DNA from: Bacillus sp. NP157
GTDB taxonomy: Bacteria > Pseudomonadota > Gammaproteobacteria > Xanthomonadales > Rhodanobacteraceae
Direction of reading: 5' to 3'
NCBI GenBank assembly: GCA_018889975.1
Contig: CP076546.1
Span: 620,001-684,000, forward strand
DNA: 64,000 nt
Both the position numbers and the translations under genes were made by a program. The notes under the pieces are model-generated. The model had not been told where the DNA came from. It searched no databases and saw only the letters and a program-made list of their open reading frames with translations. How positions within the stretch are numbered: position 1 is the stretch's first letter; each line of letters starts with the position of its first letter. Positions 23,197-33,242 of the stretch are shown here, in pieces.

Positions 23197-23942
23197 GGCG
23201 TGGTCTTGGCGGCCGGCTTCTTCGCTGCCTTCTTCGGCGCGGTGGCGGGCGTGGTCGCCGGTGCGGCGGCGGCTGGCGCCGTGCTGGCCGCCGGTTTCGC
23301 GGCCGTCGCCGACGGCGCGGGCACCGCCTTTTCTTCGCCGACGACCTGGGCCGAATTGATGATGACCAGCGGGTTCGGCACGTCACCCACGAACGGGCCC
23401 TGCGCGCGGGTCGGCAGCTTGGCGATCTTGTCGACCGTGTCCATGCCCTGCACGACCTTGCCGAACACCGCGAAACCCCAGGTCAGGCCGCTCTGGTTGC
23501 TCACGTAGTCCAGTCGACGGTTGTCGACCAGGTTCACGAAGAACTGCGACGTGCCCGAGTTGGCATCGGCACCACGCGCCACCGCGACGGTGCCGCGCAG
23601 GTTGGAGAGGCCGTTGTCGGCTTCGCTGGGAATCGGGGCGCGCGTGCGGCGCTGGGTCAGGTCGCGGCTGTAGAGGCCGCCCTGGACCATGTAGCCGTCG
23701 ACGACGCGATGGAACACGGTGCCGTCGTAGAAGCCGTCACGCACGTACTGCAGGAAGTTGGCGACGCTCTTGGGCGCCTTTTCCGGGAACAGCTCCAGGG
23801 TGACGTCGCCCTGGCTGGTGTGCACGATCACGCGCGGGTGGTCCATGGGACCCGGCGCGGGGGCCGCCGGCTTGGCCTGCGGCTGCGCCAGGGACGCGGC
23901 GGGCAGGACGAGGAGGAGGCTGGCGAGGACGGCTTTCAGCAT
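23193..23942 (-). CDS. Periplasmic cyclophilin-type peptidyl-prolyl isomerase
   Basis: 249 aa from the ATG at 23942. A signal peptide (LASLLLVLPAASLAQ) is followed by a cyclophilin domain with FHRVVDGYMVQGG and SGTSQFFVNLVDN, then a low-complexity Ala/Pro/Thr/Lys tail of about 50 residues ending KKPAAKTTP. It catalyses proline cis-trans isomerisation of exported proteins. The basic tail is unusual for PpiA and might bind envelope polymers or nucleic acid. It is translationally coupled to lpxH. Confidence 0.93.
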   Translation of the reverse strand: MLKAVLASLLLVLPAASLAQPQAKPAAPAPGPMDHPRVIVHTSQGDVTLELFPEKAPKSVANFLQYVRDGFYDGTVFHRVVDGYMVQGGLYSRDLTQRRTRAPIPSEADNGLSNLRGTVAVARGADANSGTSQFFVNLVDNRRLDYVSNQSGLTWGFAVFGKVVQGMDTVDKIAKLPTRAQGPFVGDVPNPLVIINSAQVVGEEKAVPAPSATAAKPAASTAPAAAAPATTPATAPKKAAKKPAAKTTP

Positions 23943-24006
23943 GGTTTGCAGGTCGTGGCGGCGGACAACCCCACCATGATACCCCCCTTGGCGGCGGGGA
24001 TCGCCT

Positions 24007-25566
24007 TCATTCCGTAACGATCTCGAGCTCGAGGCCGAGTTCGGCCAGCGGTTCACGCTCTTGCTCAAGGTCGGCCTCGGTCAGCGGATGCTGGTCGAGC
24101 CAGTCGGCCGGCACGGTCAGCCGCAGGCGCTGGCGCGTCGCGGCGACGCGGATGCGCGGCAGCGATTCGGCACGGCGTGCGCGACGGAACAGCACGGCGA
24201 GGCGGAGCAGGGTGGTGATGTGCCGGGCCAGCGGGCGGTAGCGCACCGGCAGCGCGCTGATGACCGGTTTCTCGGGCTTGCGGCGGTGCGATTCGACGAT
24301 GGCCGCGAGCAGCTGCTGTTCCTGCCGGGAGAAGCCCGCCATATCGGCATGGCGCAGGATGTAGGCCCCGTGGCGCTGGTGCTGGCTGTGCGCGATGGCC
24401 AGGCCCAGCTCATGCACCCGGCAAGCCCAGGAGAGCCATTCACGCGCATCGTCGTCGAGCTTCCACACCTTGGCCAGCTGGTCGAAGAGCGACAGCGCGG
24501 TGGTTTCGACGCGACGGGCCTGGGCACGATCGACGCCATAGCGGTTGGCGAGCGAGTCGACGCTGGCCATGCGCGGGTCCGTGCCGGCAGAACGGCCGAG
24601 CAGGTCCCACAACAGGCCTTCGCGCATCGAGCTTTCGGATATGCGCAGGCGTTCGATGCCGAGGGCTTCGAACGCGGCCTCGAAGATCGCCACGCCACCG
24701 GCGAACACTTCGGCGCGGTCTTCGGCAAGGCCCGGCAGTTTCAGCGGCGCACCGGCGGCGCCCTGTTCGATCAGGGCTTCGCGCACCGCCGCCAGCGCAT
24801 CGGGCGTCACGCCGTCGTCGGACAGCTTCATCGCGCGGACCACCGAACCGATCGCCTTGGCCGTACCTGACGAGCCGTACGCATCGGCCCAGCCGGCCTC
24901 GCGGTAATCCTCGGAGAACTGTTGCAGTAGCACGCCGATTTCGCGACGCGCCTTCTGCCAGCGCTTGCGGGTGATCTTGCCGCCCGGGAAGAAGCGCAGC
25001 GTGGAGGCGATGCAGCCCACCTGCACGCTTTCGGTCAGCAGCGGCGAGGTACCGCGGCCAATGATGAATTCCGTGCTGCCGCCGCCGATGTCGATCACCA
25101 GCCGGTGGTCGCGCGACGCCGGCAGGTCATGTGCGGCGCCCAGGAAGATCAGGCGGCCTTCTTCACGACCCGACACGATTTCCACGGGATGGCCGAGCGC
25201 GGCCTCCGCGGCCGACAGGAAGGCGTGCGGTGACGCGAGCCGGCGCACGGTATTGGTCGCCACGGCGCGCACGTGCAGCGCCGGGATGCCGGCGATGCGC
25301 TGGCCGAAGCGAGCGAGGCTGGCGAGGGCGGCGGCACGATGCGCGGTGTCGAGCGTGCCGTCCGGGCGCAGGCCCACGGCCATGCGCACGGAATCACGGA
25401 GACGGTCGACCACGCGGGGTTCGCCGTGCTCGTAACGCGCCACCACCATGTGGAAGCTGTTGGAGCCGAGGTCGACGGCGGCGAGGAATTCGCCATCGTT
25501 GATCTGCGATTTTGCTGATGAGGCCAAGGGAGATGTCCGCAGCGGCGTATCGGGGAATTCTGGCAC
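24007..25566 (-). CDS. ppx: Exopolyphosphatase (Ppx/GppA family)
   Basis: 519 aa with the ASKHA fold: DLGSNSFHMVV near residues 32-42 and DIGGGSTEFIIGRG near 147-160, then the C-terminal HD-like helical domain with CRVHELG and HRRKPEKP. It removes phosphate from polyphosphate ends, or hydrolyses pppGpp in the GppA branch. The polyphosphate assignment is favoured by length (E. coli Ppx is 513 aa) and by ppk in the same block. The first 20 residues are not conserved, so the start could be a little later. It is the last gene of the probable phoB-to-ppx unit. Confidence 0.94.
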   Translation of the reverse strand: MPEFPDTPLRTSPLASSAKSQINDGEFLAAVDLGSNSFHMVVARYEHGEPRVVDRLRDSVRMAVGLRPDGTLDTAHRAAALASLARFGQRIAGIPALHVRAVATNTVRRLASPHAFLSAAEAALGHPVEIVSGREEGRLIFLGAAHDLPASRDHRLVIDIGGGSTEFIIGRGTSPLLTESVQVGCIASTLRFFPGGKITRKRWQKARREIGVLLQQFSEDYREAGWADAYGSSGTAKAIGSVVRAMKLSDDGVTPDALAAVREALIEQGAAGAPLKLPGLAEDRAEVFAGGVAIFEAAFEALGIERLRISESSMREGLLWDLLGRSAGTDPRMASVDSLANRYGVDRAQARRVETTALSLFDQLAKVWKLDDDAREWLSWACRVHELGLAIAHSQHQRHGAYILRHADMAGFSRQEQQLLAAIVESHRRKPEKPVISALPVRYRPLARHITTLLRLAVLFRRARRAESLPRIRVAATRQRLRLTVPADWLDQHPLTEADLEQEREPLAELGLELEIVTE

Positions 25567-25600
25567 GGGTGGGACCGGTATGTCGCGGACGTTGCCGCCG

Positions 25601-26101
25601 TCACGCTTTCCTTACGCGCGATTTGGGCATCGCGGATAGCGCGAAAAGGAGGATGCAGAGGAAGCCGAATACCCAGTAATCGGTGGGGGCCGGTCCCCAC
25701 CAGTGCCTGTGCCACGGCACGTTTTCGGGGTTGAAGCGGGCCAGCCCGAAGGCGGGGTTCAATACGAACCACAGCCCGTCTTCGGCGACCCAGAACAGCA
25801 TGATGCAGGCGATGATCCGCACCTGTGCACGCCAGCTCCAGAACCCGCGGAATACCATGGGGAAATGGAAGCACAGCGCGATGAAGGGGAACACCCAGGC
25901 GTGGTAACCCGTCATCGGACGGCCGCCCCAGAGCAGGTCGAGCAGCCAGTGGTTCTCGACGCGCCAGGTCGGCAGGCTGGTCGCCCAGCCGTGCGACCCT
26001 TCGATCTCCACCTCGACATGGGCGAAGAAGAACGCCATCAGGAAGGTGAAGCAGAACGTCGCCAGCACCGAGGCGACGCGTCGACCGGGTGAATGGCTCA
26101 T
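25601..26101 (-). CDS. Small multi-pass membrane protein in the phosphate operon
   Basis: 166 aa, started at the ATG at 26101, which overlaps the stop of the glycosyltransferase gene (ATGA). About four membrane segments are visible (10-28, 70-85, 95-112, 140-158), with Trp and His-rich loops such as NVPWHRHWWGPAPTDYW. I do not recognise the family. Translational coupling to the glycosyltransferase and its place between ppk and ppx suggest a role in the same lipid or phosphate response, for example as a membrane partner of the glycosyltransferase. Confidence 0.8.
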   Translation of the reverse strand: MSHSPGRRVASVLATFCFTFLMAFFFAHVEVEIEGSHGWATSLPTWRVENHWLLDLLWGGRPMTGYHAWVFPFIALCFHFPMVFRGFWSWRAQVRIIACIMLFWVAEDGLWFVLNPAFGLARFNPENVPWHRHWWGPAPTDYWVFGFLCILLFALSAMPKSRVRKA

Positions 26102-27243
26102 CGATGGCCCAGTTGTGCGAGCACGATGTCGATGACGTCGCGCGCGGCATGTGGCCGGCCGATCGCCCGTGCGTTCGCGGCCATGCTGGCCAGGTGCGCG
26201 GGATCGTCGCGTAGCGCGCCGACCCGCCAGGCCAGCGCCACGGCGTCGATCGCCTTCCACGCCGCGCCCTGTTCGAGCAGGTAATCCGCGTTGCGTTCTT
26301 CCTGGCCGGGGATCGGTGCGTTGACGATCATCGGCAAACCCATCGCAAGGCATTCGGACGTGGTCAGGCCACCGGGCTTGGTGATCGCGAGGTCGCAGCA
26401 CGCCATCAGCCGCTCGACATTTTTCGTGTAACCCTGCGGGAACAGCCGGCCCGCGTGCTTGCCGGCGGCGAGCGCGCGCAGGCGCTCGAGCATCTCGGCA
26501 TTGCGCCCGGCGAGCACCACCAGCTGGAAATCGCCGCCAGCGGAGAGCAGCGTGTCGGCCAGTTCGTCCAGCGCGCCGACGCCCGCGCCGCCACCCATCA
26601 CGAGGTAAGCGGGACGCGATGGGTCCATCCCGAACCCCCGCGCCAGCGCCTCGCGATCATGTGGCTCGGCGAAGGCCGGCATCACCGGGATGCCGGTGAC
26701 GTGGACCCGGGCCGGCGCAAGGCCTACCGCGTGCATGCGATGGGCGATCTCCGGACTGGCGGCGAAATAGCCTGCCATCTCCGGGATCACCCACATGCGG
26801 TGCAGGTCGAAATCGGTGACCTGGAGATACACCGGTGCCGTGACCCGACCCTTGCGGATCTGCCGCATCAGCATCTCGGCGGGCAGGAAGTGCGTGCAGA
26901 CGATCGCGTCGGGCGCGAACGCCGTGATGGCCGCGCGCAGGCGACGCGTGTTCAGCCGCTCGATCGTCCGGCGCATGCGCTGGGTCACCGCGTCGGGGCG
27001 GGCATCGCCGGTGATGCGATAGAGCATGCCCCACAGGCGCGGGTAGCGCGTGATCAGGCTCAGGTAGAAGTCGGCGTAGATGCGCCGGAAGCTCGAGGGC
27101 ACGAAGTCCATGACATCGAGGTGCTTCGCCTCGACCTCGCCACCGGCGGCGGCGAGCGACGTGACGGTGGCCTCCAGCGCGTCCGCGGCACGCACATGGC
27201 CCGCACCGGCGGACACCGACAGGAGCAGGATGCGCCGCTTCAC
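26098..27243 (-). CDS. MGDG-synthase-type glycosyltransferase (GT28)
   Basis: 381 aa, started at a GTG (27243) that overlaps the ppk stop (GTGA). A longer frame to 27342 runs into ppk and is rejected. The N-terminal MGDG-synthase domain shows SAGAGH at residues 11-16. The C-terminal GT-B nucleotide-sugar site shows GGGAG (217-221), KPGGLTTSE (289-297) and PGQEERN (312-318). Such enzymes move galactose or glucose from UDP-sugar to diacylglycerol at the inner membrane. In other proteobacteria under phosphate starvation the products replace phospholipids. Its position between ppk and ppx behind a Pho box supports that role, but sugar and acceptor are not shown. Confidence 0.9.
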   Translation of the reverse strand: MKRRILLLSVSAGAGHVRAADALEATVTSLAAAGGEVEAKHLDVMDFVPSSFRRIYADFYLSLITRYPRLWGMLYRITGDARPDAVTQRMRRTIERLNTRRLRAAITAFAPDAIVCTHFLPAEMLMRQIRKGRVTAPVYLQVTDFDLHRMWVIPEMAGYFAASPEIAHRMHAVGLAPARVHVTGIPVMPAFAEPHDREALARGFGMDPSRPAYLVMGGGAGVGALDELADTLLSAGGDFQLVVLAGRNAEMLERLRALAAGKHAGRLFPQGYTKNVERLMACCDLAITKPGGLTTSECLAMGLPMIVNAPIPGQEERNADYLLEQGAAWKAIDAVALAWRVGALRDDPAHLASMAANARAIGRPHAARDVIDIVLAQLGHR

Positions 27244-29411
27244 CCGCAGTAACTTGCCAGGAGGGCCTGCTGCGCGGAATGCGGCAGTTCGCCCTTTGCG
27301 GGATGGCGGCGGGTGTAGCGGCCGTCGGCGCCAAGCATCCACGCCTGGGTGTTGTCGCGCAGGTAGTTATCCAGGGTTTCGTCATAGACGCGCTGGAACA
27401 GCGCGGGTTCGAGGATGGGCACGCCCACTTCGATGCGACGCATCAGGTTGCGCTCCATCCAGTCGGCGCTGGCACAGTAGAGCTCCGGCTCACCGTCGTT
27501 GCCGAACCAGTAGACGCGGCTGTGCTCGAGGAAGCGACCGATGATCGAGCGCACGCGGATGTTCTCCGACACGCCCTTGATGCCCGGGCGCAAGGTGCAT
27601 GCGCCGCGGATGATGAGGTCGATCTGCACGCCGGCGATCGAGGCGCGGTAAAGCGCTTCCACCACGTGCGCTTCGTTCAGCGCATTGAGCTTGGCGACGA
27701 TGCGGGCGGGGCGGCCGTTCTTCGCGTGTTCGATCTCGCGTTCGATCTTGCCCATCACGCTGCTGTAGAGCGTGAACGGCGAATGCAGCAGGCGCTTGAG
27801 CTGGATCATCGGGCCCAGGCCCGACAGCTGCTGGAACACCTTGTGGATGTCTTCGCCGATTTCCGGGTTGGAGGTCATCAGGCCGATGTCGGTATAGCCG
27901 CGGCTGTTGCCCTGGTGGTAGTTGCCCGTGGACAGGTGCACATAGCGGCGCAGGCCGCTGCTTTCGCGGCGCACGATCAGCAGCATCTTCGCGTGGGTCT
28001 TGTAGCCGACCACGCCGTAGACGACCTGCACGCCGGCTTCCTGCAGGCGATTGGCCAGGCCGATGTTTGCTTCTTCGTCGAAGCGCGCGCGCAGCTCGAT
28101 CACCACGGTGACGTCCTTGCCGTTGCGCGCCGCGTCGACCAGCAGGTCGACCAGCGGCGAATCCTTGCCCGCGCGGTAGAGGGTCTGCTTGATCGCCAGC
28201 ACGCCAGGGTCCTGCGATGCCCGGCGCAGCAGTTCGACCACCGACGCGAACGATTCGTAGGGATGGTGCAGGAGCACGTCGCGCTCGCCAAGCACGTCGA
28301 ACTCGTTCACGCCCTTGGCGAACGCAGGGGTCAGGCGCGGGGTGAAATGCGGGAATTTCAGTTCCGGCCGGTCGAGCTGGTCGTAGATCACGCCAGCGCG
28401 GATGATGTTGACCGGGCCATCGCAACGGTAGATGTCGGCATCTTCCAGCTGGAAGTTCGCCTTGAGCATGTCGGTGATCGCGCGGGGGCAGTCGGCACCG
28501 ACTTCGAGGCGCACCGGGCGGGCGTAACCGCGGCCGGCGAGCTCTTCGCTCAGGGCGCGAGCAAGGTTTTCGACCTCGGCTTCCTCGACCACCAGTTCGC
28601 TGTTGCGGGTCACCCGGAACTGGTACGCGGCGCAGACCTGGAAGCCCGGGAAAATTTCATCGGCGAAGCTTTGCAGCACTTCGGCCAGGAAGACGAAATC
28701 GCCATCGCCACCGGACACTTCGGCGGGAAGGCGGATGATCCGCGGCAGCGAGCGCGGCGCACGTACGAGCGCCATGTGGCCCTCGCGACCGAACGCATCA
28801 CGGCCGTTGAGGACGACGGCGAGGTTGAGCGTCTTGTTGAGGATGCGCGGGAACGGATGGGCCGGGTCCAGGCCCAGCGGCGACAGCACCGGCATGACCT
28901 CGTTCTGGAAATAACCCTGCAGCCAGCGGCGCTGTTTTTCCGACCAGTCGTCGCGCTTGAGGAAGCGGATGCCGGCGTCGTTCAGTGCCGGGCCCAGTTC
29001 GTCGCGCCAGATCCGGAAGATCTCGCCGACCAGCTCGAGCGCGCGCTCGCGGATGCGGCCCAGGATCTCGCCGGAGCCGAGGCCGTCGGCGCCAGGCCGT
29101 GCCGCGCCCAGGGCGTGCTTGTGCTTGAGCACGGCGACGCGCACCTCGAAGAATTCGTCGAGGTTGTTGCTGACGATGGTCAGGTAGCGCAGGCGTTCCA
29201 GCACGGGAACGTCGGGATCGTTCGCCTGGGCCAGCACGCGGAAGTTGAATTCCAGCGCGGCCAGCTCGCGGTTGATATACAGCTCGGGCGCGCCGAGATC
29301 GACCTGCTCGCGCCTGGATTCGACGATTCGTTTCATAGCCGCCGATGGTGGACCATCGCTGGCTGCCGCGGAAAGAGGCAACGCAGCAACCGGTGGGCGG
29401 CGGGAAGCCAT
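27240..29411 (-). CDS. ppk: Polyphosphate kinase 1
   Basis: 723 aa membrane-associated enzyme that makes polyphosphate from ATP. The N-terminal domain begins YINRELAALEFNFRVL, the head domain includes YLTIVSNNLDEFFEVR, and the catalytic phospholipase-D-like domains include YVHLSTGNYHQGNSRGYTD, with the phosphohistidine, and the later FLEHSRVYWF. The given start (29411) is four bases after phoR. A second Met at residue 26 (29336) begins nearer the conserved region and is a possible true start. It lies in the phoB-phoR-ppk block, which links polyphosphate synthesis to phosphate limitation. Confidence 0.97.
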   Translation of the reverse strand: MASRRPPVAALPLSAAASDGPPSAAMKRIVESRREQVDLGAPELYINRELAALEFNFRVLAQANDPDVPVLERLRYLTIVSNNLDEFFEVRVAVLKHKHALGAARPGADGLGSGEILGRIRERALELVGEIFRIWRDELGPALNDAGIRFLKRDDWSEKQRRWLQGYFQNEVMPVLSPLGLDPAHPFPRILNKTLNLAVVLNGRDAFGREGHMALVRAPRSLPRIIRLPAEVSGGDGDFVFLAEVLQSFADEIFPGFQVCAAYQFRVTRNSELVVEEAEVENLARALSEELAGRGYARPVRLEVGADCPRAITDMLKANFQLEDADIYRCDGPVNIIRAGVIYDQLDRPELKFPHFTPRLTPAFAKGVNEFDVLGERDVLLHHPYESFASVVELLRRASQDPGVLAIKQTLYRAGKDSPLVDLLVDAARNGKDVTVVIELRARFDEEANIGLANRLQEAGVQVVYGVVGYKTHAKMLLIVRRESSGLRRYVHLSTGNYHQGNSRGYTDIGLMTSNPEIGEDIHKVFQQLSGLGPMIQLKRLLHSPFTLYSSVMGKIEREIEHAKNGRPARIVAKLNALNEAHVVEALYRASIAGVQIDLIIRGACTLRPGIKGVSENIRVRSIIGRFLEHSRVYWFGNDGEPELYCASADWMERNLMRRIEVGVPILEPALFQRVYDETLDNYLRDNTQAWMLGADGRYTRRHPAKGELPHSAQQALLASYCG

Positions 29412-29415
29412 GCGT

Positions 29416-30693
29416 TCAGGCCGGCGCCCCGGCCACGTCGTGCAGGCGGGCGCCGTCGAGCAGGCGGTCGCTGCCGAAAACGCAGGCGAACGTGGAGCCC
29501 TTGCCCGGCTCGCTGTCGATCGTCAGGCGAGCCTGGTGCAGGTTGAGCACGTGCTTGACGATGGACAGGCCAAGGCCGGTGCCGCCGGAATCCCGCGAAC
29601 GGCTCGACGAGACGCGGTAGAAACGTTCGGTCAGTCGCGCGATGTGCGCAGCCGGGATGCCGAAGCCGGAATCCTGCACCGAGAAGCGGGCACCGCCTTC
29701 TTCCTCGGCCCAGCGAATGGCGATCTTGCCGCCCGTGGGCGTGTAGCGCACGGCGTTGCTGACGAGGTTGGAAAACGCGCTGTGCAGGTCCTTCGGCGAA
29801 CCCAGCAGGTCGTAGCCGGTCGCGACGTCCAGGCTCACCACGTGGCGACCCTGGCTGAGCGCCTCGGCTTCCTTGCGCAGGCTGGCCAGCATCGGCGCCA
29901 TCTGCACGTGTTCTTCGGCGACATGGTCCTGGGTTTCCAGGCGCGACAGGGTCAGCAGGTCTTCGACGATCTGGCCCATGCGCTTGGACTGCGCGCGCAT
30001 CTCGTCGAGCACGGGCGCCAGTTCGGGCACGTCTTCCGGGTCCAGCAGTTCGAGGTAGCCGTGGATCACCGTGAGCGGCGTGCGCAGTTCGTGCGACACG
30101 TTGGCGACGAAGTCGCGGCGGATCTGCTCGAGCCGGGTCAGGTGGCTGGTGTCGCGGGCAAGCAGGACGCGCTGGCGGCTGCCAAACGGAAGCAGGGTGG
30201 CCGTGACGTGGCGATTCGGGTGGCCCGGGGCCGCCGCGTCGGTAAGCGGTTCGCGCGCGCCGTCGTCGAGCCATTCCGACAGCTCGCTGTTGCGCAGCAC
30301 GTCGGCAAGGAAGCGGCCGCGGTCGCGCTGGCGCTTCAGGCCAAGCAATTCTTCCGCCGCGTGGTTGAACCAGCGGATGTGCTGCGCGTGGTCCAGCAGG
30401 ACCACGCCATCGGGAAGGGAACCCGCCGCGCTGCGCAGGTCGCGAAGGCGGGAGGCAATACGGCGGGTGCGAGTCATGAGACGGTCATGTTCAGGGCGGG
30501 TCGACACAGGCGGTTGCAACATTGGCCCCGACTTGTGACGGAACAACGACAGGAACACGACGATTTCCAGCAGCGCGACGAGCAGCACGCCAGCGGTCGC
30601 CGCGCCCACGAGCGCACCCACCACGCCACCCGCGACAAGCAGGGCAGCGCAGGTGGCGGGCAGTCGCCAGGAGGTGAGGAAACGGGTGGGCAT
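29416..30693 (-). CDS. phoR: Phosphate regulon sensor histidine kinase
   Basis: 425 aa. Two N-terminal membrane segments (about 12-28 and 32-50) form the short hairpin typical of PhoR, with no large periplasmic sensor. A PAS domain follows (residues 90-190), then the HisKA box with phospho-acceptor His201 (NVSHELRTPL), and the ATPase domain with DSGFGIP and GGTGLGLSIVKH. It phosphorylates PhoB when phosphate is scarce. The gene is 60 bases after phoB and four bases before ppk. Confidence 0.95.
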   Translation of the reverse strand: MPTRFLTSWRLPATCAALLVAGGVVGALVGAATAGVLLVALLEIVVFLSLFRHKSGPMLQPPVSTRPEHDRLMTRTRRIASRLRDLRSAAGSLPDGVVLLDHAQHIRWFNHAAEELLGLKRQRDRGRFLADVLRNSELSEWLDDGAREPLTDAAAPGHPNRHVTATLLPFGSRQRVLLARDTSHLTRLEQIRRDFVANVSHELRTPLTVIHGYLELLDPEDVPELAPVLDEMRAQSKRMGQIVEDLLTLSRLETQDHVAEEHVQMAPMLASLRKEAEALSQGRHVVSLDVATGYDLLGSPKDLHSAFSNLVSNAVRYTPTGGKIAIRWAEEEGGARFSVQDSGFGIPAAHIARLTERFYRVSSSRSRDSGGTGLGLSIVKHVLNLHQARLTIDSEPGKGSTFACVFGSDRLLDGARLHDVAGAPA

Positions 30694-30753
30694 GACGAGG
30701 GTGGCCGGCGTGGTCTGGTGGCTTGCACCTTAACGCGGCAACCCCGCGTTAGC

Positions 30754-31443
30754 CTAGGTACTTGCGGAGAAGCGATAGCCCGCGCCGCGTACGGTCTGCA
30801 CCATATCGTCGAGCTTCCACGGTTCCAGCGTCTTGCGCAGGCGGCGGATATGCACGTCCACAGTGCGCTCTTCCACGTACACACTGCCGCCCCACACGTG
30901 GTCGAGCAGCTGGGCGCGGGAATAGACGCGCTCCGGGTGGGTCATGAAGAAGAACAGGAGGCGGTATTCGGTCGGGCCGATCGGCACGGCGTCCTCGCCC
31001 GCGAACACGCGGTGGGCCGGGCCGTCGATGCGCAGGCCGCCCAGTTCCACGATGCCCGAACCGTCGTCGCCCTGGCTGCGGCGCAGCACCGCCTTGATCC
31101 GGGCGATGAGTTCGCGGGTGGAGAAGGGCTTGATCACGTAGTCGTCCACGCCGGCCTCCAGGCCGTTCACGCGGTCCATCTCCTCACCGCGGGCGGTGAG
31201 CATGATGATCGGGATCTCGCGGGACAGTTCCTCGCGCCGCAGGCGCCGGGCCAGTTCCAGGCCGCTGGTGCCCGGCAGCATCCAGTCCAGCAGGATCAGG
31301 TCGGGCACGCGTTCGGAGATCGCCATCTGTGCGGCGCGGGCATCCGCGGCGTGAGCCGCATCCATGCCTGCCTTGCGAAGCGCGAACGCGACCATGTCAC
31401 GAATCGATGCCTCGTCTTCCACGATAAGGATGCGCTTATGCAC
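30754..31443 (-). CDS. phoB: Phosphate regulon response regulator
   Basis: 229 aa from the GTG at 31443, the same length as E. coli PhoB. A longer frame to 31503 would overlap the Pho box and is rejected. The receiver domain has the acidic pocket EDE at residues 9-11 and phospho-acceptor Asp53 (LLDWMLPG). The winged-helix domain ends [11 protein letters not shown] and [10 protein letters not shown] near-perfect Pho box lies 49-66 bases upstream, so the gene is probably autoregulated as in E. coli. Confidence 0.96.
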
Positions 31444-31491
31444 GCTGGGGGACCGCCGTTGGCTGAGACCGTCATATTGCAGCCTTGTAGT

Positions 31492-31509
31492 GTTACAGGG
31501 CAATGACAG
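31492..31509 (-). promoter_or_regulatory. Pho box upstream of phoB
   Basis: On the minus strand the sequence reads CTGTCAT, four bases, CTGTAAC, matching the two 7-base direct repeats of the PhoB site. About ten bases further on, TGCAAT matches four of six bases of a -10 element, the expected spacing for a PhoB-activated promoter that lacks a -35. Confidence 0.85.
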
Positions 31510-31520
31510 GGGCGGGAGGA

Positions 31521-31605
<85 letters not shown>

Positions 31606-31628
31606 TCAACTCGGTACCCGAAACGCTC

Positions 31629-33242
31629 TTATCTTTGGGTTCTTCCGTCCGGATTGTCGTCCGTGGCCACGCGGCGCTTGCGCAATTCCAGCAACAAAGG
31701 CGTCAAATCGGCAATCCGGGCCTGGATGCGCGAACGTTGGTAATAGTCGAGGTCGTCGCGCTTTAGCAGGCGGCGCAGCTGTTCCATGGCGTCGAACGGG
31801 CGGCCTGCGAGGTAGGCGCTGTCGGCGTAGGCCTCGGCGGAGCGGACGCCGTCGCCGGCGCGTTCGCTGGCCTGGGCGTACGTGCGGAAGATTTCGGGGT
31901 CGTCGCTGTTGTCGAGCATGGGCCGGAGCAGGCTGGCGGCCTGGCGGGCGTTGTCGATGTTGCCGGTGCCTGCGAGGGCTTTGGCGTAGCCGAGCGTCAC
32001 CGCGACGTTGCGCGGCGAGTTCGCGTGCAGCGCCTTATAGATGGCCATGGCGTCGCCCGAGCGGCCGGCGTCCACGTAGGCGTCGGCCATGGCGAGGCGG
32101 AGGACGACGCTGCCGGGCTGGCTGTCGAGCAGGCCTTGCAACTGTTCCACGGCCTGGCTGCCCTTGTTCGTGCGGATCAGCGCCACGGCGTAACCGTAGT
32201 GGTTGGCCGCCGTGTCGAAATCCTTTCGTTTGAGGTTCGTGGCGTAGTACGTGGCCAGCTTCGCCGCGTCGCCGGAGAGCACGCGCACGCGCTCACGCAT
32301 CAGCGCGTAGGTATCGCTGGCGCTGTCTTTTGGCGGGTTGCTGCCGACGGTAACGAGCGAGGTGGGGTCCTTGACGTAAAGCACGGGCGCCGTGCTCTTC
32401 TCCCACGCGGCCTTGTCCAGCGTCGGCAGCTTCGGCCGGTTTTTCGCCTGGGCTTCGAGGCCGTGGGCGCGGGCACGCGCATCGCTGATGCGGTCGAGGG
32501 TCACCGGATGGGTCTGCAACAGAGCGGGCAAGGCATCTTCGCCTTCGCCCACGCGCAGGGTGTCCTGCATGCGGCCGAAGAAATCGGCCATGGCCTCGGG
32601 ATCGTAGCCGGCCCGCGACAGGGTCTGGATGCCGACGCGGTCGGCCTCGATTTCGTCCTTGCGGGTGAAGTTGATCTGCCGCTGCATCAGCAGGCTCTGG
32701 CCGCCGACGAGGACGCCGGCCGCGGCGTCGCCACCGGCGCCGCCCGCCGCGATCGCGCCGAGCAGCACGAGGGCCAGCAGCGGCGCGTCCTTCTTCGAGG
32801 CCTCGAAGGCGCGGTAGAGGTGGTTCTGGGTGATATGGCCGATTTCGTGGGCGATGACGCCGGCCAGTTCGCTCTCGGTCTGGGTGATGTTGATCAGGCC
32901 GGCGTTGACGCCGATGTAGCCGCCCGGCGCGGCGAACGCGTTGATCTGCGTGTCGCGCACGATGAAGAACTGGAAGTGGTCTTTCGGGCGGTCGCTGGCG
33001 GCCACCAGGCGAAAGCCCAGGTCGTTGATGTACTGGTCGAGCAGGGCATCGTCCAGGGTCAGGTCCAGCGCGTGCATCTGGCGGAGCATCTGCGCCCCGT
33101 AGTCGTCGGCCTCGCGCGGGCTGATCAGGGCGTTGGCCGAGCTGCCCAGGTCGGGCAGGCGGACGGCGTCCTGGGCGCCGATCGCGAAGGTGGCGGCGGC
33201 CGTGGAGGCGAGGAGCAGCAGGCGGGGAAAGGGCAGGCGCAT
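31629..33242 (-). CDS. bepA: Periplasmic M48 metalloprotease/chaperone BepA-like
   Basis: 537 aa with a signal peptide (cleavage probably after residue 23). The zinc site is HEIGH at 132-136 with the third ligand Glu199 in EIEADRVG, and His245 (QTHPVT) matches the regulatory His of BepA. The C-terminal half is TPR-like helical repeats. BepA helps assembly of outer-membrane proteins such as LptD and degrades stalled ones. It is slightly longer than E. coli BepA (487 aa), with extra sequence between the protease and TPR parts. It is divergent from the glutaredoxin gene. Confidence 0.92.
   Translation of the reverse strand: MRLPFPRLLLLASTAAATFAIGAQDAVRLPDLGSSANALISPREADDYGAQMLRQMHALDLTLDDALLDQYINDLGFRLVAASDRPKDHFQFFIVRDTQINAFAAPGGYIGVNAGLINITQTESELAGVIAHEIGHITQNHLYRAFEASKKDAPLLALVLLGAIAAGGAGGDAAAGVLVGGQSLLMQRQINFTRKDEIEADRVGIQTLSRAGYDPEAMADFFGRMQDTLRVGEGEDALPALLQTHPVTLDRISDARARAHGLEAQAKNRPKLPTLDKAAWEKSTAPVLYVKDPTSLVTVGSNPPKDSASDTYALMRERVRVLSGDAAKLATYYATNLKRKDFDTAANHYGYAVALIRTNKGSQAVEQLQGLLDSQPGSVVLRLAMADAYVDAGRSGDAMAIYKALHANSPRNVAVTLGYAKALAGTGNIDNARQAASLLRPMLDNSDDPEIFRTYAQASERAGDGVRSAEAYADSAYLAGRPFDAMEQLRRLLKRDDLDYYQRSRIQARIADLTPLLLELRKRRVATDDNPDGRTQR

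Follow-up and report, generated by a model that had tools for sequence, protein, structure and literature searches.

A putative phoBR-ppk-ppx operon with a candidate glycolipid module in Luteibacter

Gene organisation and Pho box

The window, a stretch of 64,000 nucleotides from a Luteibacter genome, contained a block of six genes with a Pho box on the minus strand, listed here in the direction of reading.

31492-31509 (-): Pho box CTGTCATTGCCCTGTAAC, about 48 bp 5' of phoB
30754-31443 (-): phoB, response regulator (TIGR02154, 354 bits against a cut-off of 296)
29416-30693 (-): phoR, sensor kinase (TIGR02966, 404 bits against a cut-off of 334)
27240-29411 (-): ppk, polyphosphate kinase 1 (TIGR03705, 898 bits against a cut-off of 466)
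26098-27243 (-): GT28/MGDG-synthase-type glycosyltransferase (PF06925 and PF04101; PDB relatives 9wde and 4wyi)
25601-26101 (-): Mem, a 166-aa predicted four-helix membrane protein, conserved neighbour of the glycosyltransferase, with 34 invariant residues
24007-25566 (-): ppx, exopolyphosphatase/GppA family (PF02541 and PF21447 above gathering score)

The minus-strand open reading frames and the profile matches confirmed the organisation described in the earlier note, a six-gene block of a single direction with GTGA and ATGA overlaps behind a Pho box. The GT28 gene starts with a GTG codon that overlaps the ppk stop as GTGA, and the start of Mem overlaps the 3' end of GT28 as ATGA. The gaps were 60 bp between phoB and phoR, 4 bp between phoR and ppk, and 34 bp between Mem and ppx. 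From position 23800 to 31700, the coding strand showed no terminator-like site, and no sigma-70-like site was found. For ppk, an inner ATG was a possible alternative start. The ppx product fell below the cut-offs of both the Ppx and the GppA models of NCBIfam.

The sequence CTGTCATTGCCCTGTAAC was the sole match without mismatch to the pattern CTGTMAYNNNNCTGTMA across the 4.88-Mb Luteibacter genome. When up to one mismatch was allowed, the pattern matched at 10 genome sites and the reversed pattern at 2. Of the nine sites besides the phoB box, all with one mismatch, two precede pstS and an OprP-like gene, and the pattern therefore detects expected targets; a plausible gene could be assigned to only five of the ten sites. 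When the upstream 300 bp were resampled 2000 times under a first-order Markov model, the score of the phoB box was never reached. A box scoring at least 15/17 was present ahead of phoB in all 12 uncut named Luteibacter loci (L002-L013).

The glycosyltransferase and the membrane protein Mem

The N-terminal domain PF06925 scored 82.3 bits (gathering score 25) and the C-terminal domain PF04101 scored 26.8 bits (gathering score 22). The closest PDB sequences were 9wde (E 6e-38) and 4wyi (E 6e-35). The previous assignment to the MGDG-synthase type was upheld by full-length relationship to plant MGD1 and to the UgtP-type diglucosyl diacylglycerol synthases. The top NCBIfam matches were diglucosyl diacylglycerol synthase models, all below cut-off, and the UgtP equivalog models gave 197.7 bits against a cut-off of 500 (NF010135) and 143.2 bits against 557 (NF010134). 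A glycine-rich loop ending in GH was present in the N-terminal region, and KPGG...E and GQE..N in the C-terminal region, motifs which we take to have their usual roles in the GT28 family. Across 16 aligned rows G15-H16, K289-P290-G291-G292, E297, G313-Q314-E315 and N318 were invariant. All three motifs (GH, KPGG and GQE..N) were present in 9wde; 4wyi shares GH and GQE..N, with KAGPG replacing KPGG. Judging by homology, the enzyme may transfer a hexose from a UDP-sugar to diacylglycerol.

What is new at this locus is chiefly the Mem family. Mem matched none of the families or solved folds searched: Pfam, NCBIfam and PDB sequences gave no match, and the predicted model, of moderate quality (pLDDT 74.6), gave no usable match to PDB folds with Foldseek (best E 2.0). 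The 34 invariant residues, in an alignment of 27 rows, lay mostly on one predicted face, the outer one, which would suit the handling, flipping or modification of a glycolipid or its acceptor. The charge distribution predicted that both ends of the protein are inside. It is possible that Mem acts at the membrane on the same lipid as GT28.

Distribution of the pair and of other candidate components

The earlier note had called the arrangement unusual, and comparison of gene order bore this out: among the genomes examined, Luteibacter shares it with just one other member of the Rhodanobacteraceae. The GT-Mem pair lay between ppk and ppx in 8/8 same-genus genomes searched and in the 12/12 uncut named Luteibacter loci. 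The spacing of ppk and ppx was tabulated for 88 of the 139 ppk-bearing genomes of the order. The two genes were less than 500 bp apart in 74 of these 88 genomes and on different contigs in five. The insert measured 1.68-1.92 kb in the eight same-genus genomes, and in one other genome of the order (G080) a stretch of 0.95 kb separates the two genes. In the family, 22 non-Luteibacter loci were compared: a phoR match lay at most 1.5 kb before ppk in 20, ppx followed ppk in all 22, and phoB was visible in eight, where the short flank reached it. The uninterrupted phoR-ppk-ppx order is usual in the family, from which Luteibacter differs by GT28 and Mem between ppk and ppx.

A separate GT-Mem pair was found in Rhodanobacter, Dyella, Burkholderiaceae and other gammaproteobacteria. 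The two genes were adjacent in 29 of 31 loci of one set (one of the two exceptions was cut by a contig end), in 14 of the 18 GT28-positive genomes of the order, and in the four plasmid records with Mem. The coupling of Mem to the glycosyltransferase suggested previously was thus recovered wherever Mem was found, except in G386. The 4-bp overlap seen in Luteibacter is shared by L093, L094 and four Burkholderiaceae plasmids. The main groups were common to the GT and Mem trees, the latter being weak, with good support for 8 of its 30 inner branches.

Pho boxes stood ahead of GT-Mem in two of the 21 loci scanned outside the phoBR operon. In these two, L028 and L093, strong tandem boxes were located shortly before the pair; random windows of the same locus, which may include the box itself, reached the L093 score in 6/1000 cases and the L028 score in 9/1000. 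Only a doubtful box was visible in L127, and no box scoring at least 13 preceded GT-Mem in L026, L027, L054, L094, L128 or L129. Phosphate control of the Rhodanobacter pair was discarded, as no box of at least 13 was present within 300 bp upstream in 12 Rhodanobacter/Dyella-type loci. A box over the GT-Mem start in Burkholderia arboris was weak (13.5, matched by 6/2000 resamplings) and was left uncounted. Neighbours of the separate pairs such as greA, a BtuF-like gene named by eye, and ABC transporter genes have no evident phosphate role.

A dual-specificity phosphatase gene follows GT-Mem in the four Burkholderiaceae plasmids, and in one genome (L014) the phosphatase is fused to Mem. By eye, the Burkholderiaceae phosphatase has what looks like a signal or anchor segment at its start, which, with both Mem ends predicted inside, fits poorly with the fusion in L014. 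The phosphatase was rejected as a general third member: the Luteibacter genome had no homologue at E 1e-6, and homologues occurred in 26/200 genomes of the order, among them one of the 18 GT28-positive genomes (G053), where it was unlinked to GT-Mem.

The earlier note had proposed looking for a PlcP-type phospholipase at another genomic site, and a candidate was located via PF00149 (L082:6391-7251, minus strand). It was 42% identical over 93% to a Sinorhizobium meliloti protein adjoining AHL-synthase and LuxR genes; from these neighbours, presumably sinRI, we take the protein to be SMc00171. PMC3596328 places SMc00171 with the genes of the Pho regulon and calls it a phospholipase C. Near the candidate, the Pho-box pattern had no match at one mismatch or fewer (best score 12.5/17), and no glycosyltransferase lay beside it, its neighbours being glutaredoxin-like and GDSL-esterase-like genes, named by eye. 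A PlcP-type protein was present in 18/18 GT28-positive genomes of the order compared to 98/200 overall, several of the 18 proteins being only 42-44% identical to the Luteibacter candidate. Within the family the association (16/16 genomes with GT28, 13/18 without) was weak and phylogenetically non-independent. The lpxH gene beside the cyclophilin gene in the window was discarded as a PlcP candidate: it looks like an ordinary LpxH, and no paralogue was found at E 0.1. The genome also carries a GT4 Agt-like gene preceded, at a distance of 85 bp, by a Pho box scoring 16.0. Its product was 39% identical over 301 residues to a Sphingomonas glycosyltransferase encoded on a plasmid beside a PlcP-like gene; no functional NCBIfam model was above cut-off.

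Proposed role and comparison with known systems

We propose, with somewhat better than even confidence, that the block is a phoBR-ppk-ppx operon with a glycolipid module, tying lipid remodelling to PhoBR-polyphosphate control in a lineage-specific manner. In this model, the Luteibacter lineage would have gained the two-gene GT28-Mem module by insertion into the family operon, between ppk and ppx. When phosphate is scarce, PhoR would activate PhoB, which would bind the Pho box and, as the box and the spacing suggest, drive transcription of the whole block. The PlcP-type phospholipase, by homology, may cut phospholipids into diacylglycerol, to which GT28 may add a hexose from a UDP-sugar, giving a phosphorus-free lipid. 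Ppk and Ppx would handle the phosphate freed from phospholipids, and Mem, translated from its overlapping start, would work on the same lipid at the membrane. The GT-Mem pair probably makes phosphorus-free membrane lipids. The phosphate-linked glycolipid reading of the earlier note stands in part: the close spacing, the Pho box and the homology of the glycosyltransferase favour it, whereas most separate GT-Mem loci and the PlcP candidate have no convincing box, and the GT4 gene is a second candidate with a Pho box of its own.

The separate loci without a convincing box, 19 of the 21 scanned outside the phoBR operon, would be expected if GT-Mem constitutively supplied an envelope glycolipid, or else a lipid-linked precursor, and had come to lie in the operon through an insertion accident of little regulatory meaning. 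The greA, BtuF-like and ABC transporter neighbours point the same way, as does a Mem-less GT28 that comes after a UppP-like gene (by eye) in L032. However, the tightly spaced insertion is kept in every uncut Luteibacter locus examined and Pho boxes stand shortly ahead of the pair in two other lineages, and we regard this explanation as rather unlikely. We would give still less weight to the Pho-boxed GT4 Agt-like enzyme being the main remodelling transferase, with GT28 extending its product to a diglycosyl lipid or playing a minor part. UgtP-type enzymes are processive and extend to a diglycosyl lipid. The box of the GT4 gene (16.0, -85), its 39% identity to the PlcP-linked Sphingomonas enzyme and the below-cut-off resemblance of GT28 to diglucosyl diacylglycerol synthase models agree with such a division of labour, which nevertheless leaves unexplained why GT28, and not the putative GT4 without a functional NCBIfam assignment, sits in the phoBR operon.

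Mem might also be an unrelated small membrane protein merely travelling with the glycosyltransferase. G386 has Mem with no GT28 match (E 1e-30), and GT28 occurs without Mem in 4/18 genomes of the order and in G449. Adjacency across several families, the shared 4-bp overlap and the agreement of the two trees in their main groups, the Mem tree being weakly supported, argue against this reading, which we hold to be improbable. A further proposal, which we advance tentatively, is that the Mem proteins form a new enzyme family, small and integral to the membrane, which acts with GT28, for example in headgroup flipping or modification, within a mobile GT28-Mem(-dual-specificity phosphatase) module that PhoB came to control on three or more separate occasions, one of them through insertion into phoBR-ppk-ppx.

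If the proposed coupling is right, phosphate sensing, polyphosphate turnover and phospholipid replacement would be encoded together on a single transcript in a genus associated with plants and soil, and remodelling would rely on a GT28 enzyme, not on the GT4 Agt known from described PlcP-Agt systems. Mem, as an unannotated family, would be a candidate for a missing component of bacterial glycolipid metabolism. In the open-licence literature searched, we recognised no description of the phoBR-ppk-GT28-Mem-ppx arrangement.

The Luteibacter GT28 shares its domain make-up, and sequence relation along the whole protein, with UgtP/YpfP and plant MGD1, but differs in belonging to a proteobacterial branch of about 380 aa, in scoring below the equivalog cut-offs and in having Mem as operon neighbour. 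According to PMC4796936 and PMC8528852, PlcP-Agt remodelling is known in Agrobacterium, SAR11, Phaeobacter and Pseudomonas aeruginosa, and uses a GT4 Agt often beside plcP and Pho-boxed. Compared to these systems, Luteibacter likewise has PhoBR-linked control, a PlcP-type protein and a candidate diacylglycerol glycosyltransferase. It differs in that its plcP lies elsewhere in the genome with no evident Pho box, whereas the enzyme is a GT28 located in the phoBR-ppk-ppx operon and paired with Mem.

The operon and its Pho box

Downstream of the Pho box at 31492–31509, the minus strand carries phoB, phoR, ppk, a GT28-type (MGDG-synthase-type) glycosyltransferase gene (GT, 26098–27243), a gene for a 166-residue predicted four-helix membrane protein (Mem, 25601–26101) and ppx, all in one direction down to position 24007. 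The tight spacing described in the earlier note was borne out, with overlaps at ppk/GT (GTGA) and GT/Mem (ATGA) and short gaps between phoB and phoR (60 bp), phoR and ppk (4 bp), and Mem and ppx (34 bp). PhoB, PhoR and PPK1 matched family models above the curated cut-offs, and the Ppx/GppA domain and both GT domains exceeded the gathering scores; the NCBIfam Ppx and GppA models stayed below cut-off for the ppx product. Neither terminator-like sites on the coding strand nor a sigma-70-like promoter were found between 23800 and 31700.

The sole perfect match to CTGTMAYNNNNCTGTMA in the whole genome, a single contig of 4.88 Mb, was the Pho box of this operon. With at most one mismatch to the Pho-box pattern, 10 genome sites were obtained versus 2 for the reversed control. 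Of the nine other sites, two precede expected Pho targets, namely pstS and a gene called OprP-like from its sequence and position alone, with no Pfam match. One precedes a GT4 glycosyltransferase gene, another lies close to the beginning of an LTA-synthase-like sulfatase gene, and the remaining five were assigned no plausible gene. The box is conserved in Luteibacter, the nearest named relatives of the host: phoB was preceded by a box scoring at least 15 out of 17 in all 12 uncut named loci (L002–L013). In Rhodanobacteraceae bacterium ZG21-1 (L014) it was preceded by one scoring 14.5. The LTA-synthase/OpgB-like sulfatase gene (L072:2403–4331, minus strand, G000:C1 near 3639335 in the host genome) has an uncertain true start codon; sulfatases of this type are able to release diacylglycerol from phosphatidylglycerol. 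In two of the Luteibacter loci another ppk homologue, with about 50% identity, is situated beyond lpxH and preceded by Pho-box-like repeats (L004:13952–16176 and L009:14040–16264).

GT and Mem as a pair, probably inserted

The search of 200 genomes of the order gave 139 ppk-positive and 182 ppx-positive genomes. Distances between the two genes were tabulated for 88 of the 139 (the 51 omitted nearly all had lower ppk scores or lacked a listed ppx). In 74 of these 88 the separation was under 500 bp, and in five the genes were on different contigs. The eight genomes of the same genus had a gap of 1676–1916 bp holding GT and Mem. In genome G080 a 948-bp gap held something other than this pair; this different insert of 0.95 kb is seen in L122, and the GT28 gene of G080 is located elsewhere. 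Of the 22 non-Luteibacter loci of the family, all have ppx after ppk, and 20 show a phoR match no more than 1.5 kb upstream of ppk. This spacing and gene order make phoR-ppk-ppx the basic arrangement of the family, into which GT-Mem appears to have been inserted in the Luteibacter lineage. The insertion is also found in L014, and the GT tree did not resolve one event shared with Luteibacter from separate ones.

GT and Mem are a pair. Mem followed GT in 29 of the 31 loci of the GT homologue set, L029 ending at a contig end and L032 having no Mem. The GT domain PF06925 occurred in 18 of the 200 genomes; Mem adjoined it in 14 and was absent beside it in four (G012, G031, G190 and G195). In a phylum survey of 398 genomes, the GT profile (E 1e-30) matched six and the Mem profile (E 0.001) four. 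The genes were adjacent in all three genomes with both (G000, the host; G365; G571), GT was alone in G012, G031 and G449, and G386 had a Mem homologue (L096:7115–7564) with no GT28 match at E 1e-30. All four Mem-bearing records of the plasmid collection had GT directly upstream of Mem. The 4-bp overlap of Luteibacter recurred in L093, L094, three Caballeronia and Burkholderia arboris; the spacing in Rhodanobacter was 2–74 bp, with uncertain Mem starts. Luteibacter, Rhodanobacter, the Burkholderiaceae plasmids and L026 with L027 were the main groups common to both trees, that of Mem being weak (8 of 30 inner branches well supported). Several neighbours were named by eye: an M50-peptidase-like gene adjoining the Mem homologue of G386, a UppP-like undecaprenyl-diphosphatase gene directly before the Mem-less GT28 (L032:8066–8989), and a sulfotransferase-like gene after Mem (L054:8863–9687).

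Phosphate control, a third partner and the Mem protein

Outside the phoBR operon, 21 loci with Mem were scanned over the 300 bp upstream of GT. Strong tandem Pho boxes with an 11-bp spacing were observed in two: L028, from a Burkholderiales MAG (best box 16.0, reached by 1 of 2000 resamplings), and L093, from G365 (15.5, reached by 3 of 2000). When windows were drawn at random from these loci, possibly including the boxes themselves, 9 and 6 of 1000, respectively, scored as high. No box of at least 13 was found in this interval in the 12 Rhodanobacter/Dyella-type loci or in L026, L027, L054, L094, L128 and L129. Thus, phosphate control of the pair recurs but is not general. A box of 13.5 in L127 overlaps the start region and was not counted. 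Upstream of GT in the six Mem-less loci (L032, L050–L053 and L095), no box reached 13.5.

In Caballeronia plasmids, the pair belongs to a longer operon of GT28, Mem, a dual-specificity phosphatase and YdcF:
L128:5995–8929
L129:5995–8944
L132:3995–6938

The same kind of phosphatase lies immediately 3' of Mem in Burkholderia arboris, and in L014 (10142–11161, plus strand) the two are fused in one 339-residue open frame. That they are fused here and adjacent in distantly related bacteria speaks for a functional connection between Mem and the phosphatase. No homologue of the latter was found in Luteibacter at E 1e-6.

Mem had no match in Pfam, NCBIfam or PDB sequences. It possesses four hydrophobic segments, and its AlphaFold model (mean pLDDT 74.6) matched no solved fold. 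On average, both ends and loop 2–3 are positively charged and loops 1–2 and 3–4 negatively, which suggests that both ends face the cytoplasm. Across 27 aligned rows 34 residues are invariant, and 24 of these fall in loops 1–2 and 3–4, on the predicted periplasmic side. Such an arrangement of Glu, Asp, His, Arg and Trp residues resembles a catalytic or binding site.

Candidate lipid-remodelling enzymes and known systems

A PlcP-type phospholipase elsewhere in the genome was a check proposed by the earlier note, and a candidate was found among the seven metallophosphatases retrieved with PF00149 (L082:6391–7251, minus strand; LpxH models match it weakly). Its product shares 42% identity over 93% with a protein of S. 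meliloti, the gene for which adjoins those of an AHL synthase and a LuxR protein in a record of 3.7 Mb that bears the label pSymB. We take these neighbours to be sinI and sinR, and the match to be SMc00171. One report lists SMc00171 as a phospholipase C in the set of Pho regulon genes (PMC3596328). The identity is near the expected range, since another gives 46% for PlcP of P. aeruginosa against that of S. meliloti (PMC8528852). PlcP-type homologues (E 1e-20) were present in 98 of the 200 genomes of the order, including all 18 with GT28, where some were only 42–44% identical. At the family level the occurrence was 16/16 with GT28 versus 13/18 without; this signal is weak and not independent of phylogeny. 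The plcP candidate had no good Pho box and no glycosyltransferase gene among its neighbours. A glycosyltransferase gene with its own Pho box lies at another place in the host genome:
L068:2771–3931 (G000:C1 near 861499), minus strand, GT4 Agt-like glycosyltransferase, Pho box 85 bp upstream

A Sphingomonas plasmid encodes, next to a PlcP-like gene, a glycosyltransferase with which the product of this gene shares 39% identity over 301 residues. The GT4 enzyme is thus another candidate diacylglycerol glycosyltransferase for lipid remodelling. A 611-residue frame with a PF13444 (OlsB-type acyltransferase) domain was also observed (G000:C1:2498794–2499102, minus strand, L153). It is perhaps an OlsF-like ornithine-lipid enzyme, presumably another phosphorus-free lipid route.

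We propose that one PhoB-driven transcript would run across the whole block. PlcP would supply diacylglycerol, from which the GT28 enzyme would make hexosyl-diacylglycerol; the freed phosphate would be handled by Ppk and Ppx, and Mem would act on the lipid. The parts of the block are of known kinds; what seems new is the way they are arranged in the operon, and Mem as a partner. No report of either was recognised in the open-licence literature among the matches listed. GT28 is a named glycoglycerolipid-synthase family in PMC8231724. The phosphate-driven glycolipid systems described so far, as presented in three papers (PMC4796936, PMC8528852, PMC8231724), combine PlcP with the GT4 enzyme Agt as transferase, whereas the block of the host carries a GT28 enzyme.
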